Source: Plebeiibacterium marinum (lineage in GTDB: Bacteria; Bacteroidota; Bacteroidia; Bacteroidales; Marinilabiliaceae). Taken from it: DNA of 34,497 bases. The position numbers and the translations under genes were made by a program. Numbering within the stretch: position 1 is the stretch's first letter; each line of letters begins with the position of its first letter. This document shows positions 26,704-34,253 of this stretch, in pieces. The DNA lies in NCBI RefSeq assembly GCF_026013615.1, contig NZ_JAPDPI010000052.1:1-34497 (forward strand), written 5' to 3'. The notes beneath the pieces were generated by a model. That model saw nothing but the letters and a program-made list of their open reading frames with translations. It made no database searches and was not told where the DNA came from.

Positions 26704-27504
26704 ATGAAGGGAACAATCTTCGATATCAAGAGGTTTGCCCTGAATGACGGTCCAGGTATCAGGACAACGGTATTTTTAAAAGGATGTCCATTAAAATGTG
26801 CCTGGTGTCATAATCCCGAAAGTATATCTTCTGTAATTGAGGAATTTATACAAGTAAGGGAGTTGGATGGTCAGCGGTTTGAGTCAACTCAAGCCATCGG
26901 GGAGTTTGTAACTTCAGAATCTTTAATTGAAGAAATTGCAAAGGATAAGGAATTTTTCAGGCAGAGTGGTGGAGGTGTTACCTTTTCTGGGGGAGAGCCC
27001 ATGTTGCAGTTAGATTTTTTATCTGATATTATTACAAAATGCAAAGCAAAAAAAATGCATGTTGTAATTGATACTGCAGGATTATGCAAACAGTCGCATA
27101 TTGAAAAGGTAATGAATCAGGTGGATTTGTTTTTATATGATTTGAAAATTATTGATGAAGAGAAACATAAGACCTATACAGGGGTGTCTAATGATGTAAT
27201 ATTAAAGAATCTTGAATTTTTATTGCAGAACAACGCCAATGTAATAATAAGGATTCCTGTTATTCCGGGTATTAATGATCAGGAGCAGGATATTGTTAAA
27301 CTTGAGCAGTATTTATCAGATAAGTTAGAATATATAAAAGAAATTCACTTATTGCCGTTCCATAATTCAGCGGAGTCAAAATACCGGAGATTTAATACCG
27401 GTTATAGTTTTAAAGGAGTAAAAAGCCAGGATCCTCGGGATTTGGTAAATTTAAAAGAAAGATTTGAACGTAAGGGGTTCAATGTAAAAATTGGAGGAAT
27501 GTGA
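26704..27504 (+). CDS. Glycyl-radical enzyme activating protein (radical SAM)
   Basis: A 266-residue radical-SAM activase that installs the glycyl radical on the partner enzyme. The CxxxCxxC cluster motif is at Cys28, Cys32, Cys35 (GCPLKCAWCHNPES) after the family's DGPGIRTTVFLKG. SGGEP, binding SAM, lies near 97-101. Many activases of dehydratase-type glycyl-radical enzymes carry a ferredoxin insert with two extra [4Fe-4S] clusters right after the first motif; here the segment after NPES has no cysteines, so that insert is absent. I chose ATG 26704 over the upstream ATG at 26656, whose extra 16 residues do not look like the family. The stop is 1 nt before the ATG of the dehydratase. Confidence 0.9.
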   Translation: MKGTIFDIKRFALNDGPGIRTTVFLKGCPLKCAWCHNPESISSVIEEFIQVRELDGQRFESTQAIGEFVTSESLIEEIAKDKEFFRQSGGGVTFSGGEPMLQLDFLSDIITKCKAKKMHVVIDTAGLCKQSHIEKVMNQVDLFLYDLKIIDEEKHKTYTGVSNDVILKNLEFLLQNNANVIIRIPVIPGINDQEQDIVKLEQYLSDKLEYIKEIHLLPFHNSAESKYRRFNTGYSFKGVKSQDPRDLVNLKERFERKGFNVKIGGM

Positions 27505-27505
27505 A

Positions 27506-29857
27506 ATGAATACCAGAATAAACAAACTTAGAAATCAAAGTCTGGAAGCTATCAATAAATTGTCTTCAGAGCGGGCAAAATTATTAACAGAATTTTATAA
27601 AAGTGAAGAAGCAACCCAATGTTCAATACCAGTGCAAAGAGCTTTAGCTTTTAGTTATATACTGGAGCATAAAAAGTTGTGTGTAAATGATGGTGAGTTG
27701 ATTGTTGGGGAGAGAGGCCCGGAGCCTAAGGCGACCTATACTTACCCTGAAGTTTCGTTGCATTCCATGGAAGATCTTGAAATTTTGGATCAACGAAAAA
27801 AAGTCAGTTTTAAGGTTGATGAAGAGGTTAAGACGATATATCAATCCTCTATTATTCCATTTTGGGAAGGTAAAAGTAATCGTGATAAAATCATGAAGCA
27901 AATGACCCAGGAATGGAAAGAGGCTTATAAGGCAGGAGTGTTTACTGAGTTTCAGGAACAAAGGGCGCCGGGGCACACTGTGTTGGGTGATAAAATATAT
28001 AATAAGGGGATTTCAGATATATTGGTGGATATAACTGAGGCAAAAAAGAAACTTGGAGCAGACGAGACAGATAAGCTAGAAGAGTTAAAGGCAATGGAGG
28101 TTGCTGCAAGGGCAATTGTTAAATATGCCTACAGAAATGCTTCTGAACTTGAAAGATTGGCGAGTAAAGAAAAAAGTGAAGACAGAAAATCAGAACTGTT
28201 GGAGATGGCACATATTTGTCGACATGTTCCGGAAAATGCTCCCACTACATTTCATGAAGCATTGCAATATTATTGGTTTGTTCACTTGGGTGTTATAACA
28301 GAAGTAAACCCTTGGGATTCATTTAACCCAGGCAGATTAGACCAACACTTGTTTCCATTCTACCAAAAGGATATTGCAAAGGGTGCCCTTACCAAAGAAA
28401 GAGCAAAGGAACTCTTAATGTCGTTCTGGGTGAAGTTTAATAACCAGCCAGCGCCTCCTAAAATGGGAGTAACAGCTAAGGAAAGCAATACATATACTGA
28501 TTTTGCATTGATAAACCTGGGTGGATTAAAGGCAGATGGCACCGATGCTGTTAATGATTTGACATTCCTGATATTGGATGTTATTGAAGAGATGAGATTG
28601 CTTCAGCCAAGTTCTATGGTACAGGTTAGCAAAAAGAATCCAGATGAGTTTATTAAAAGAACCTTGCAGATAACAAAAACTGGTTTTGGACAACCATCTT
28701 ATTTTAATTCTGATGCAATTGTTGAAGAATTAGTAAATCAGGGAAAAGATATTGTAGATGCCAGAAATGGAGGGGCAAGTGGATGTATTGAGTCTGGAGC
28801 TTTTGGTACAGAAGCTTATTGGTTGACAGGATATTTTAATATACCTAAGGTATTAGAAATTACGTTGCATAATGGGATTGATCCGAAAACTGGAAATCAA
28901 TTGGGGATTCAAACTGGTAAAGTGGAGGATTTCGACTCTTTTGAAAAACTGATGCAGGCCTTTGAAAGACAAATGAATCACTTTTTGGACATAAAGTTAG
29001 AAGGTAACAGAAGGATTGAAAGCGTGATTATGCAGGAATTGCCGGTTCCATTTTTGAGTTTGTTCATTGATGACTGTATTGGCAATGCTCAGGATTACAA
29101 TGCTGGGGGTGCCAGGTATAATACAAGCTATGTTCAGGGAGTTGGATTGGGAAGTATAACGGATGCCTTAACATCGATTAAGTATCATGTTTACGACAAT
29201 AAAAACATTACGCTTAAAGAACTTGTAGAGGCAACTGATCATGATTTTGTGGGTTATGAAAAACTTAGGTATGATTTAATATATGAAACACCTAAATTTG
29301 GTAATGATGATAATTATGCAGATAGTAATGCCCTTAGGGTGTTTGAGATTTTTCATGATGCAGTAAATAATAAAGTTACACCAAGGGGAGGGACCTTTAG
29401 GATTAACCTTTTGCCAACTACTTGTCATGTTTATTTTGGGCAGGTAATGCAGGCTTCTGTAGATGGAAGGAAAGATGGGGAACCTTTGTCAGAAGGAATT
29501 TCACCAGTTCAGGGAGCAGATAAGAAGGGACCAACAGCAGTGATTAATTCCATGCTTAAAATTGATCATACACAAACCGGGGGTACTTTGTTGAATCAAA
29601 AGTTTACGCCGCAGTTTTTTAATACAGGGGAAAGTATAACAAAGCTAACCCACCTGATCAGGACCTATTTTAATCAGTTGGGACATCATATTCAGTTTAA
29701 TGTAGTTGATGCAGATACTTTACGGGATGCTCAAAAACATCCAGAAAAGTATCAGGACCTGATTGTGAGGGTAGCTGGTTATAGTGATTATTTTAATGAC
29801 TTGACAGTAGAGTTACAAGAAGAGATAATAAACCGTACAGCACATAATATTTTATAG
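27506..29857 (+). CDS. hypD: Glycyl-radical trans-4-hydroxy-L-proline dehydratase (HypD)
   Basis: A 783-residue glycyl-radical enzyme. The radical site is Gly758 (VRVAGYS) and the thiyl Cys427 is in GASGCIESGAFG. The residue after GC-x-E is Ser, as in HypD, and not Pro as in glycerol, propanediol or choline lyases. C. difficile HypD active-site residues as I recall them all have equivalents: H160 (157), F152 (149), D278 (271), S334 (327), D339 (332), C434 (427), E436 (429), Y450 (443), T645 (638), G765 (758); the offset is 3 early and then a constant 7. HypD dehydrates trans-4-hydroxyproline to pyrroline-5-carboxylate. An SD-like GGAGGA (27493-27498) precedes ATG 27506. Note that the name clashes with hydrogenase-maturation HypD. 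Confidence 0.88.
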   Translation: MNTRINKLRNQSLEAINKLSSERAKLLTEFYKSEEATQCSIPVQRALAFSYILEHKKLCVNDGELIVGERGPEPKATYTYPEVSLHSMEDLEILDQRKKVSFKVDEEVKTIYQSSIIPFWEGKSNRDKIMKQMTQEWKEAYKAGVFTEFQEQRAPGHTVLGDKIYNKGISDILVDITEAKKKLGADETDKLEELKAMEVAARAIVKYAYRNASELERLASKEKSEDRKSELLEMAHICRHVPENAPTTFHEALQYYWFVHLGVITEVNPWDSFNPGRLDQHLFPFYQKDIAKGALTKERAKELLMSFWVKFNNQPAPPKMGVTAKESNTYTDFALINLGGLKADGTDAVNDLTFLILDVIEEMRLLQPSSMVQVSKKNPDEFIKRTLQITKTGFGQPSYFNSDAIVEELVNQGKDIVDARNGGASGCIESGAFGTEAYWLTGYFNIPKVLEITLHNGIDPKTGNQLGIQTGKVEDFDSFEKLMQAFERQMNHFLDIKLEGNRRIESVIMQELPVPFLSLFIDDCIGNAQDYNAGGARYNTSYVQGVGLGSITDALTSIKYHVYDNKNITLKELVEATDHDFVGYEKLRYDLIYETPKFGNDDNYADSNALRVFEIFHDAVNNKVTPRGGTFRINLLPTTCHVYFGQVMQASVDGRKDGEPLSEGISPVQGADKKGPTAVINSMLKIDHTQTGGTLLNQKFTPQFFNTGESITKLTHLIRTYFNQLGHHIQFNVVDADTLRDAQKHPEKYQDLIVRVAGYSDYFNDLTVELQEEIINRTAHNIL

Positions 29858-29889
29858 TTGTGTGTTGTTGTTTTAAAACATTATTTTAA

Positions 29890-31170
29890 ATGAGTAAGTT
29901 AAGGTTAGGCGGATTGTTTTTAATACTTGTTTTATCCATAAAGGTATATGCGATATCAGGTATTGAAAACACGCTGAAAGGATATGATCGGTTAATAGTA
30001 AAGAAGATTCAAACCCTTGATGGTTATAAGGAGTCATATTTGATAATGATGACCCAGCCATTGGACCATGATGCTCCTGGACTAGGAAGTTTTTGTCAAA
30101 GGATATGGTTAAACCATTTAAATGACAAGGCTCCCATGGTAATGGTAACGGAAGGATATTCTGCAAACCGGAACTATCAAACAGAATTGGCAAAAGAATT
30201 AAAAGCCAATCAGTTAATTGTTGAACACCGGTACTTTGAGGCTTCTACGCCTGAAAAAAAGGATTGGAAATACCTTACTGTAAAGAATGCTGCTGCTGAT
30301 CATCATGAGATCATTAAGTTGTTTCAGAAATTGTACAAAGGGAAATGGCTTACTACTGGTATTAGTAAAGGAGGGCAGACAACATTATTCCATAGGGCAC
30401 TGTATCCAAAGGATGTAGATGTTTCAGTTCCGTATGTTGCTCCTGTTAACCTGGAAAGGGAAGATCCGCGACTGCTGGCGTTTTTTGAAAAAGTAGGAAG
30501 TCAGGACGATCGGGCTAAAATTAAAGCTTTTCAGAAATTGGTTTTACAAAGAAAAGAAAGGCTTCTACCCTTGTTTCAGAGTTATTCAGAGAAGAATAAA
30601 TTGAAATTTGCCAAAGGAATAGAGCAGGCTTATGAACTTGGTGTGATGGAGTACCCATTTGCATTTTGGCAATGGGGATATACGGCAGATAAGATCCCGG
30701 GGAGTGATGCGAGTGATGAAGAAGTGTTAAATCACTTTATCAAAGGCTCTAGTATTGATTATTTTTCTATCGATATGATGAAGCAGTTTGAGTCGTTTTT
30801 TTATCAGGCGTATAAAGAATTAGGGTATTATAATTATGTGCCGGGGGACTTACAGCCGTTAATGGATGTAGTGAAATCTGATACTATTTCTAGTTGTATG
30901 TTCGCACCAGGGGGTGATACTTTGTCCTTCAATAAAGCTACAATGCAGATGGTTGTTTCAAAGTTGAATAAGTATAATCCCAAAATGGTTTTGATATGTG
31001 GGGAGTATGATCCGTGGGGAGCTACCTCATTGGATGTTGCAAATATGTCTAAATCATTAAAGGTGGTTAAGCCCAAGGGCTCGCATAAGGCTCGGATAAA
31101 TAATCTTTCTGAAGCAAAGAAAGAAGAGGTTTGGGCTTTGTTGAAAAAATGGATGAAGGTTAGGGAATAG
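29890..31170 (+). CDS. Secreted serine peptidase, S37 (PS-10)-like family
   Basis: A 426-residue protein with a signal peptide (MSKLRLGGLFLILVLSIKVYA, cleaved near 21) and an alpha/beta-hydrolase fold. Nucleophile Ser159 lies in TTGISKGGQTT, with Asp374 (GEYDPWGA) and His399 (KGSHKAR) completing the triad. TQPLDHDAP (55-63) and VEHRYFEAS (111-119) are typical of the S28/S37-type peptidases. Known S37 members are prolyl tri/tetrapeptidyl aminopeptidases. It starts 32 bp after hypD in the same orientation, which suggests it supplies proline- or hydroxyproline-rich peptides. Substrate preference is inferred only. Confidence 0.8.
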   Translation: MSKLRLGGLFLILVLSIKVYAISGIENTLKGYDRLIVKKIQTLDGYKESYLIMMTQPLDHDAPGLGSFCQRIWLNHLNDKAPMVMVTEGYSANRNYQTELAKELKANQLIVEHRYFEASTPEKKDWKYLTVKNAAADHHEIIKLFQKLYKGKWLTTGISKGGQTTLFHRALYPKDVDVSVPYVAPVNLEREDPRLLAFFEKVGSQDDRAKIKAFQKLVLQRKERLLPLFQSYSEKNKLKFAKGIEQAYELGVMEYPFAFWQWGYTADKIPGSDASDEEVLNHFIKGSSIDYFSIDMMKQFESFFYQAYKELGYYNYVPGDLQPLMDVVKSDTISSCMFAPGGDTLSFNKATMQMVVSKLNKYNPKMVLICGEYDPWGATSLDVANMSKSLKVVKPKGSHKARINNLSEAKKEEVWALLKKWMKVRE

Positions 31171-31200: not shown

Positions 31201-31232
31201 AAAGGGGGTGTCATGTATTTGATACCCCCTTT
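31201..31232. terminator. Bidirectional terminator between convergent operons
   Basis: AAAGGGGGTGTCA (31201-31213) pairs with TGATACCCCCTTT (31220-31232), a 13-bp stem with one G-U pair and a 6-nt loop. It lies between the peptidase gene (plus) and the TonB receptor gene (minus). A-rich and T-containing flanks support use on both strands. Confidence 0.85.
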
Positions 31233-31251: not shown

Positions 31252-33735
31252 TTAAAACCTCAGGTTAATTCCAGCCAAATATAGTCCTCCAATTTTATCC
31301 ATAAATACATATTCTTGAGAATCGTTGTCCAGGATATTCCTTCCGTTAACAAATACGTCAATATTATCGTTGATCTTGTAATTAATCTTGGCGTTTAGTA
31401 AAAATTTACTGTCCATATTTCCTGAATACTCCAGCTCTGGTTTAATGTTATAAGCAATTAATGCAGCTCTCCTTGGATCATTTTCATATTGTGAATACAT
31501 ATAATAATTGTCATAATAATAACCCTGAGCTGTGATCGAAAGCTTTTCGATAGGCTTGTAAGTCAGTGATAAGCTACCCCAGAAAGAAGGCATGGCTTCG
31601 TTGTCAACATCATTTAAAACTTCAATCTGTTTTAGTATACCATTGCTTGCAAGGTATTGTTCCAATAGCGGGTTTTCACCAGGTTGTAAATCCGAGCTGT
31701 AAGTCTTAGGCTTGCCACTTAGTATTGTTGGAGCATCATTAGCAAGGTTGGCCGTAACAATACTTGTTAATTCACCGCCTTGCAGGGTTGCTATATTGTC
31801 CCTTCCTGCATCAGTGAAATTATCTAATTTGGTTTGTTGCCAGTTAACATGTGCTTTTAATTGCAACTTTTTTGATATGACCATGTCTGCAGAGATGCTT
31901 ATGCCAAATTGCTTACTTTCAACATCTAAAGAGCGGTGCGATGTGTGTAGTGTTTGTTCCCCAATTGGAGAGGGTGATGTTGGTTCGCTAAAATCGATGT
32001 CGGTTACTTCATAGGATAGCTCATCCGGCATTAAAGCACTAAAGTCTTTTGCTCTGTTGTAAAAGGCTTCAATGTCTAACAGTATCCTTTTAGATGGGCG
32101 CGTCCTAAAACCAAGTTCTATCATGTTCATTACCATCATGTTCGGGTCGTTGTTATCTCCAAAGTGTACATAGCTTGGCCCTTTTAATCCATCTCTGTTC
32201 CAGGTGTAGTTGCTATAGGCATTGATCATAAAAGTACTTTGGTTGGCTCTTGAATATACTGCCCTAAAAAGGTTGTTTTCGTTTATTTTATACGAGCCGA
32301 TAAACTGGTATGAAGGCATCCATTTATCAGGAACATTGTATTTCTCGGCACGCAAAGCAGCCACTAACCTTAATTTTTCAATAGGTGTGAAATCAAAACG
32401 TCCGCTGGCGGCAAAGTTTCTTAAAGCAACACGGGCGTTAAAGAATCCATCTCCAAGTTTTTCAATGTTGTCTCTGTCGTCGTAGTATACCGATTGGTAA
32501 CTTATTCCGGGACGGAAGCTTAGTTTGTTCCATTTTAATAAATAATCAAGGTTTACATTATATTGCTCGGTGCTTTGTTGCCAACCTGAGCGCCCCCTGC
32601 AAAAATCCTGTTCTACATTGTTCAGTGAAGCCTGAAGGTTAAAGCCAAATAGGTTACTCACAAAGTTGATGTGGTATCCTTCTGAACTTCGGATGTTGTG
32701 TAAGCTTGGGTTGTCGCCTAATGTGGAAGTCATGGCTTGCGACTCAAGGTATCCTGTGCTAACATTAAAGGTCAGGTTGTCCTTTTCTTTATAGGCAATA
32801 TAGGCATTTACTCCTTTTTTTTCTTTGGCAATATCTGCCTCGTCTATCATTTCATAGTAGCTGTCGTTACTCCATTTGCCAAAAGGGTTGTTGTCGTTCT
32901 GGTCTACAAATTCTGAAATGGAAAGAAACTCGTCTGCATATATGGCATAAATTTCCTCTGATTCCCTGTTTCGTGTTTCAAATGATCCGGAAATGCCCAT
33001 TGCTAATTTGTCGTTTATTTGTTTTTTTACATTAACATCTCCAATAAAGGTTGATAATGAACCACCTTGTATGTTTGTTGAGATTACCGGAGTATCTTCA
33101 TTGATGTTTTTAGAGATAAGATTGATCACTCCATTTACTGCATTGGGGCCATACAGAGCACTTGAAGGCCCTCGTACCACTTCAATGCGGTCAAGTTCCC
33201 CCAGGCTGATGGGCAGTGTTTCCCATAAGATCCCCCCCATGCCATAGTTAAATACCGGACGACCATCAACCATCACAAGAGTTGTGGTGTTTTCGGCATA
33301 AATAAGCATATTGTTCATGGGCATGTTTTGTCCGCCTCTGATTTGAACATCATATACGCCATTAGTTTTTTCCCTAACAATAACTCCCGGAACCATGCGC
33401 AAGGCTTCTTCGATAGAGGTTGCTCCGGAGGTAATTATTTCGTTGCTGCTTAACACGGTTGTTGAAAGGGGGGAGTCAAAAAGGCTCTCTTCTGATTTTG
33501 AGGCTGAAGTCACATCCTTGTTTAATAGGAGTTCGTACAATTCTTCAATGCTTGAAGCACCCACAATATCCATAATTTTCATAACCTCTTCCAGATCGTA
33601 ATTAGCAAGGTCTTCAATGCTCATTTCTAATACATCGCTACGGGTAAGCGTGCTAATGTCTTTTTTTATGTTTTGAGCGTTTATAGTTGCTGCAAATATC
33701 AGCAATATAAATAGATGTAATATTTTTTTAGTCAT
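31252..33735 (-). CDS. TonB-dependent outer-membrane receptor with acidic N-terminal extension
   Basis: An 827-residue protein: signal peptide to about residue 20 (ATINAQ), an acidic helical segment at about 28-72 with repeated 'x-I-E-E/D-L' units ending NKDVTSASKSEESLFDSP, then the plug (about 85-205; VPGVIVREKTNGVYDVQIRG, MVDGRPV, IEVVRGPSSALYGPNAVNGVINL) and a barrel ending GINLRF. The 'xVTSASKxxExLxxAP'-type opening marks a receptor group often found with YfiR-like proteins. No SusD or carboxypeptidase-like domain is present, so it is not a typical Sus-type receptor. The ligand is unknown. It is cotranscribed with the YfiR gene 14 bp upstream. Confidence 0.9.
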   Translation of the reverse strand: MTKKILHLFILLIFAATINAQNIKKDISTLTRSDVLEMSIEDLANYDLEEVMKIMDIVGASSIEELYELLLNKDVTSASKSEESLFDSPLSTTVLSSNEIITSGATSIEEALRMVPGVIVREKTNGVYDVQIRGGQNMPMNNMLIYAENTTTLVMVDGRPVFNYGMGGILWETLPISLGELDRIEVVRGPSSALYGPNAVNGVINLISKNINEDTPVISTNIQGGSLSTFIGDVNVKKQINDKLAMGISGSFETRNRESEEIYAIYADEFLSISEFVDQNDNNPFGKWSNDSYYEMIDEADIAKEKKGVNAYIAYKEKDNLTFNVSTGYLESQAMTSTLGDNPSLHNIRSSEGYHINFVSNLFGFNLQASLNNVEQDFCRGRSGWQQSTEQYNVNLDYLLKWNKLSFRPGISYQSVYYDDRDNIEKLGDGFFNARVALRNFAASGRFDFTPIEKLRLVAALRAEKYNVPDKWMPSYQFIGSYKINENNLFRAVYSRANQSTFMINAYSNYTWNRDGLKGPSYVHFGDNNDPNMMVMNMIELGFRTRPSKRILLDIEAFYNRAKDFSALMPDELSYEVTDIDFSEPTSPSPIGEQTLHTSHRSLDVESKQFGISISADMVISKKLQLKAHVNWQQTKLDNFTDAGRDNIATLQGGELTSIVTANLANDAPTILSGKPKTYSSDLQPGENPLLEQYLASNGILKQIEVLNDVDNEAMPSFWGSLSLTYKPIEKLSITAQGYYYDNYYMYSQYENDPRRAALIAYNIKPELEYSGNMDSKFLLNAKINYKINDNIDVFVNGRNILDNDSQEYVFMDKIGGLYLAGINLRF

Positions 33736-33749
33736 TTTGTTGTGCAGGT

Positions 33750-34253
33750 TTATTTAATTTCAATTCCAAGTGAGACTAACTTTTGATCAACTTTTAAATT
33801 TTGGTTTGAAATCCGTTCTTTGCTAATCTCATATTTTAATTTACCATTTTGTAGTGTGTAATTAATACATGATCCTTTAGCACAATAGCCATCTTTATCC
33901 GTAATAATCAGAGTTGGTTTTGTTTCGTAAAAACTAAGAACCTGATCAAGGTTACCACTTTTGTTTTCCGGAATAAATACAATTTGTGCATCAGCTGCTT
34001 CATTGGGATGCTTTATGGTTTTAATAACAATGGATTTGTTATTAATTTTTTTTGAGCTTGACAATTTCTTTAGTTCGGTATTAATGTCATCTGTTCCAAT
34101 AATAGCAATAGTAAAATTGTCAGAGTTATTGATATTTGGCCATTCGATATATTTGGCAAAATTGAACATGAACAAAGCTTTGAACATGGATTGCTGGCCT
34201 TGGCTGGATATTGATATGAGTACCATTATCAGTAGCGCAATTCTCTTTTTCAT
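33750..34253 (-). CDS. YfiR-like (DUF4154) periplasmic protein
   Basis: A 167-residue protein with signal peptide (MKKRIALLIMVLISISSQGQ) followed by the DUF4154 opening KALFMFNFAKYIEWP (25-39) and FTIAIIGTDDI (47-57). A CAKGSC pair in the C-terminal half could form the disulfide known in this family. In Pseudomonas, YfiR is a periplasmic redox-sensitive inhibitor of the diguanylate cyclase YfiN. Here the partner in the operon is a TonB receptor, so it may couple receptor state to a sensor encoded elsewhere. No cyclase or kinase gene is in view. Confidence 0.87.
   Translation of the reverse strand: MKKRIALLIMVLISISSQGQQSMFKALFMFNFAKYIEWPNINNSDNFTIAIIGTDDINTELKKLSSSKKINNKSIVIKTIKHPNEAADAQIVFIPENKSGNLDQVLSFYETKPTLIITDKDGYCAKGSCINYTLQNGKLKYEISKERISNQNLKVDQKLVSLGIEIK

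Follow-up and report, generated by a model that had tools for sequence, protein, structure and literature searches.

A hydroxyproline dehydratase (HypD) operon with a shortened activase and a putatively exported S37 peptidase in Plebeiibacterium marinum: probable salvage of hydroxyproline from peptides

Introduction

Collagen and plant walls are rich in hydroxyproline, and the locus described here raises the question of whether a run of genes joining a glycyl-radical enzyme to a peptidase could serve to obtain this amino acid from peptides. The locus lies in the window, that is, the whole 34,497-nt stretch of DNA that was analyzed, which is one entire contig of the 5.6-Mb genome of Plebeiibacterium marinum. 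The dehydratase HypD is already known, also in Bacteroides (PMC11574389), and what is new here is the genomic context and the activase variant of this known enzyme. Among the titles and abstract openings of open-access papers, none was found that describes hypD next to proline peptidase genes, although such a description may exist elsewhere.

Results

Organization of the locus

The activase gene, hypD and the S37 gene form one co-directional run at 26704-31170 on the + strand, with 1 nt between the first two genes and 32 bp between hypD and the S37 gene (Table 1). The initial annotation had described three co-oriented genes with these gaps and a GGAGGA sequence, which the coordinates and the sequence bear out. 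It had also placed a strong terminator after the operon. The hairpin found there is indeed strong, while its T-rich tract sits on the - strand, and for this reason the hairpin may be no less a terminator for the convergent TonB-receptor gene than for the operon; a simple terminator scan did not list it.

Table 1. Features of the hypD locus and its downstream flank
Feature	Position	Strand	Description
Radical-SAM activase for HypD	26704..27504	+	266 aa; best NCBIfam model NF043069; without ferredoxin-domain insert
Shine-Dalgarno-like GGAGGA ahead of hypD	27493..27498	+	read from sequence
HypD	27506..29857	+	783 aa; NF043068, 1191.6 bits; 13/13 active-site residues
Exported (predicted) S37-family serine peptidase	29890..31170	+	426 aa; Ser159, Asp374, His399; PF05576
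Terminator-like hairpin in the gap separating the operon from the convergent TonB-receptor gene	31201..31232	.	-22.5 kcal/mol on +, z -4.9; T-rich tract on -
TonB-dependent receptor with YfiR-like gene	31252-34253	-	below TOL_0244 family cut-off

The glycyl-radical enzyme is assigned to HypD

The score of the glycyl-radical enzyme exceeded the cut-off of 1100 bits of the NCBIfam equivalog model NF043068 (Table 1), which places it among glycyl-radical enzymes where the initial annotation had put it, and its top relative in the PDB was Clostridioides difficile HypD (6vxc, E 1.2e-284). The possibility of another dehydratase subgroup was rejected, as the next NCBIfam models reached at most 651 bits and all stayed under their own cut-offs. 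Thirteen active-site positions, including F152, which we take to be an active-site position of C. difficile HypD, were compared between the two enzymes, and all 13 were identical. The positions other than F152 were those named in the consulted text of PMC7077986, which is also the source of the roles of most of the residues compared. The alignment offset was 3 at F152, R156 and H160 and stayed at 7 from D278 onward, in agreement with the earlier proposal that ten active-site residues all have equivalents, with an offset of 7 after residue 270, and the proposed GCxES in place of GCVEP was found as GCIES (C427, E429). Hence, the family score and the active site make the prediction that the window enzyme is a HypD well supported. 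Another glycyl-radical enzyme of this genome, on contig C110, was considered as a second HypD and rejected, as it best fits pyruvate formate-lyase (881 bits in a partial translation, against a model cut-off of 994).

The window system shares with that of C. difficile the enzyme family, the checked active-site residues and a dedicated radical-SAM activase (PMC7077986, PMC9044972), but it has a peptidase and not proC beside hypD, and the clostridial hypD-proC arrangement was not encountered at this locus. The idea that the peptidase takes the place of proC did not hold, because proC is encoded elsewhere in the genome (C110:138937), apart from the hypD operon. The search for proC and a peptide transporter, suggested with the initial annotation, also detected POT-family genes, and these as well as proline dehydrogenase and DPP-IV-like genes are located elsewhere in the genome. 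Neither a second S37 gene nor a proline-racemase-family gene was found in this genome, and a search for M9 collagenase gave no match in it, nor in any control. When the ProC of this genome was compared with the ORFs of the loci analyzed below, no match was obtained in this set, which contained no known ProC as a positive control.

Two HypD clades differ in their activases

HypD was searched for in 149 genomes, including the window's own, at E <= 1e-180. It was found in 46 of them, 28 with 62-100% identity to the window enzyme (clade A) and 18 with 48-51% identity (clade B); locus L068 belongs to clade A by both identity and tree, and clade B was represented by 12 fetched loci of its 18 genomes. 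Where the activase gene was seen, it lay upstream of hypD in clade A and downstream in clade B. The 13 active-site residues were unchanged, where aligned, in 95 other clade-A rows, one of which was gapped at three sites. It is very improbable that the clade-A enzyme acts on a substrate other than free trans-4-hydroxy-L-proline: the consulted portions of the literature contained no assayed clade-A member and the clade-A activase is unusual in being shortened, but the window enzyme keeps 13/13 residues and passes the HypD cut-off.

The window activase carries the radical-SAM CX3CX2C motif and adjoins hypD. Its 297 bits with NF043069 were under the cut-off of 425, yet this was its top-scoring NCBIfam model. 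The linker from CX3CX2C to GGE has 60 residues and 0 Cys, and the ferredoxin-type insert (about 8 Cys) is absent; this differs from the C. difficile activase, for which the 299-position NCBIfam model points to such an insert. The pyruvate formate-lyase activating enzyme (PFL-AE) is not known to carry a ferredoxin domain either. The window activase shares this feature and the CX3CX2C cluster motif with PFL-AE, but is nearer to the HypD-activase model than to the PFL-activase model (297 versus 206 bits).

The same comparison was extended to the other loci, five activase fragments without the motif having been left out before counting. In clade A the stretch from CX3CX2C to GGE had 43-62 residues and 0-2 Cys in 78 of the 79 measurable activases, while in clade B it had 96 residues and 7-10 Cys in 11/11 measured. 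Judged by this stretch, the former 78 are without a ferredoxin domain and the latter 11 have one. L182, the one exception in clade A, diverges close to the base of that clade in a quick HypD tree, and its position is therefore consistent with loss of the ferredoxin domain inside clade A. Auxiliary clusters, of unknown function, are present in the majority of glycyl-radical activases (PMC11528403), and the role of such iron-sulfur clusters in these activases is largely unknown (PMC10239695, PMC11528403). HypD activases without the ferredoxin domain, on which no paper was found among open-access titles and abstract openings, would thus offer a natural experiment on the purpose of the auxiliary clusters.

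The peptidase resembles proline-specific enzymes

The third protein of the run matched Pfam family PF05576 with 166.6 bits (gathering cut-off 27), and a home-made rule predicted a signal peptide on it, which agrees with the exported S37-like peptidase of the initial annotation. Ser159, Asp374 and His399 were invariant in 15/15 aligned S37 members and, with roles assigned by position, are the putative catalytic triad. The AlphaFold2 model (mean pLDDT 91.5) resembled S28 prolyl peptidases; its ten best PDB matches, with TM-scores of 0.49-0.59, were chains of proline-specific enzymes throughout, namely DPP7/DPP2 and prolylcarboxypeptidase, both human, and the prolyl endoprotease of A. niger. The S37 prolyl tri/tetrapeptidyl aminopeptidase of Streptomyces mobaraensis (PMC11878206) has the Pfam family, the serine triad and export in common with the window enzyme, which is of putative proline specificity and differs in its link to a hydroxyproline dehydratase.

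hypD recurs beside proline-specific peptidases

The hypothesis that hypD is linked to proline-specific peptidases was drawn from the first loci, and then 26 discovery and 70 test loci were compared. Of at least 588 matches the best 80 entered the sample, and removal of HypDs at least 95% identical reduced 106 loci to 96 non-redundant ones. A run was defined as co-directional genes with gaps up to 300 bp, and three proline-specific families were tested: S37, S9/DPP-IV type and M24B aminopeptidase P. The queries for C69, proline-racemase, peptide-transporter-like and M20 proteins came from test-set loci and hence stand outside the independent test. The controls came from 20 regions in five related genomes, with 292 control genes and 169 anchor genes, and, separately, from the outer genes of all 96 loci, against which the test-set runs were compared.

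Among the matches listed, an S37 gene immediately followed hypD in 12 of the 96 loci (WIN, L029, L034-L038, L044, L104, L114, L116, L175), and six others had it further down the run (L040, L056, L105, L122, L137, L146). The S37 gene thus recurs next to hypD within the genus and the family, contrary to the lack of conservation that would have spoken against the initial annotation. At least one of the three families was present in the run of 15/26 discovery and 19/70 test loci, the latter comprising 13 loci with M24B, seven with S37 and three with S9, again among the matches listed. The three families accounted for 24/142 test-set run genes versus 0/292 control genes (Fisher p 5.5e-13) and 7/497 genes outside runs (p 2.6e-11), and 19/70 test loci compared with 0/169 control anchor genes (p 1.0e-11), p-values which overstate the evidence because the loci are related. 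On the HypD tree, a quick one without bootstrap, the distribution needed at least 8 changes for S37, at least 10 for M24B, at least 5 for S9, and at least 19 for any of them. Pfam agreed with the label in 10/10 cases checked, which included a proline-racemase relative. In the remaining 51 of the 70 test loci the run lacked all three families, and in many cases the contig stops a short way from hypD; in clade B, 0/12 fetched loci from the 18 genomes found had a member near hypD. Hence, comparison of gene neighborhoods gives good support to the pairing of HypD with a proline-specific peptidase. Of the earlier claim that the peptidase feeds HypD, conservation and the enrichment in independent loci uphold the link, while the feeding itself is taken up below as a proposed step.

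By the home-made rule, export signals were predicted for 17/18 S37, 6/6 S9 and 5/5 C69 members, and for 0/17 M24B, 0/96 HypD and 0/82 activase proteins. S37 was present in 34/46 genomes with HypD versus 21/103 without (p 7.5e-10), and by genus in 20/31 versus 11/68 (p 3.6e-6), although it was often unlinked to hypD. Its frequency in HypD-less genomes would fit general protein scavenging, in which hypD and the peptidase stand together only through amino-acid use and hydroxyproline peptides are no special target of the peptidase. The presence near hypD of C69 peptidases, and of M20 or others in single loci, would fit this too. We consider this rather unlikely, since the families that recur are the proline-specific ones and the predicted S37 fold has its ten best structural matches among enzymes of that specificity.

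Several loci had further features. In the fullest runs (L040, L105 and L146), S9 (DPP-IV type), M24B and S37 genes all came after hypD, with C69 also in L105 and L146, and a proline-racemase relative in L040. A proline-racemase-family gene occurred in the run of 4/96 loci (five ORFs), the window locus not among them, and in two of the four its best model was trans-3-hydroxy-L-proline dehydratase, below cut-off. In two Prevotellaceae MAGs (L153:2414-5613 and L183:5930-9126) hypD was followed by an M24 peptidase and an MFS transporter, the one of L153 resembling oligopeptide symporters below cut-off. The S37 gene at L044:8369-9687 is divided between ORFs of 354 and 85 aa, either because the gene is broken or because of an error in the assembly. 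Locus L172 belongs to a MAG assigned to Alphaproteobacteria, yet its HypD and neighbors match those of the Bacteroidales locus L157, at 95% or more by HypD, and it may be a binning error. Non-peptidase neighbors at hypD loci included GH31, GH127 and cytidylate-kinase-like genes.

A proposed route from peptides to proline

The window operon is probably a hydroxyproline-peptide salvage operon of an exported S37 peptidase, an activase and HypD. The S37 enzyme would act outside the cytoplasm and clip peptides that contain proline or hydroxyproline, the products would enter through transporters encoded elsewhere, perhaps of the POT family, and other peptidases would complete their breakdown. By homology, the activase would install the radical on Gly758 of HypD, whose intact active site suggests dehydration of trans-4-hydroxy-L-proline to pyrroline-5-carboxylate, and this ProC, encoded elsewhere, could reduce to proline. 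We slightly favor a broader reading for Bacteroidota, in which two-compartment salvage of hydroxyproline peptides repeatedly joins HypD with proline-specific peptidases that are non-homologous but interchangeable (S37 or DPP-IV type as exported enzymes, aminopeptidase P in the cytosol) and with a stripped-down activase working without the auxiliary-cluster domain. If true, the module would show the route by which anaerobes of a large group obtain hydroxyproline from peptides, and would suggest candidate activities for Bacteroidota S37 enzymes. That some relatives pair HypD with other, unrelated proline-cutting enzymes hints at shared feeding on collagen-like or plant-wall proteins.

Collagen would be a suitable source of the hydroxyproline, and the hydroxyproline proteins of plant walls fit too. 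GH127 enzymes can act on hydroxyproline-linked arabinosides and could free hydroxyproline from those of plant walls. A GH127 beta-L-arabinofuranosidase-family gene lies directly after hypD in the clade-A locus L161 (9374-11335), but in this locus only, and the window operon has no such gene. Both mammalian and plant proteins are named as sources in the consulted text of PMC11574389. A plant or algal hydroxyproline-rich wall protein in place of collagen, with the module otherwise unchanged, is therefore an alternative that we regard as possible without preferring it.

Presence of the operon within the genus

Among nine genomes of the genus, HypD and S37 were both present in three and both absent from six. 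Five of these six genomes without the operon were fetched around the sigma-factor gene; in three of them the downstream flank was not found within the stretch fetched, while G003 and G004 keep the DapF-HtrA-sigma factor and TonB receptor/YfiR flanks with no operon between them (TonB receptor identity 43% and 76%, respectively). Since both flanks are kept in these two genomes, the operon seems to have been gained or lost as a unit. G004 has a 310-aa ORF in place of the operon and, in L226, three pairs of a TonB receptor and a YfiR-like gene in succession.
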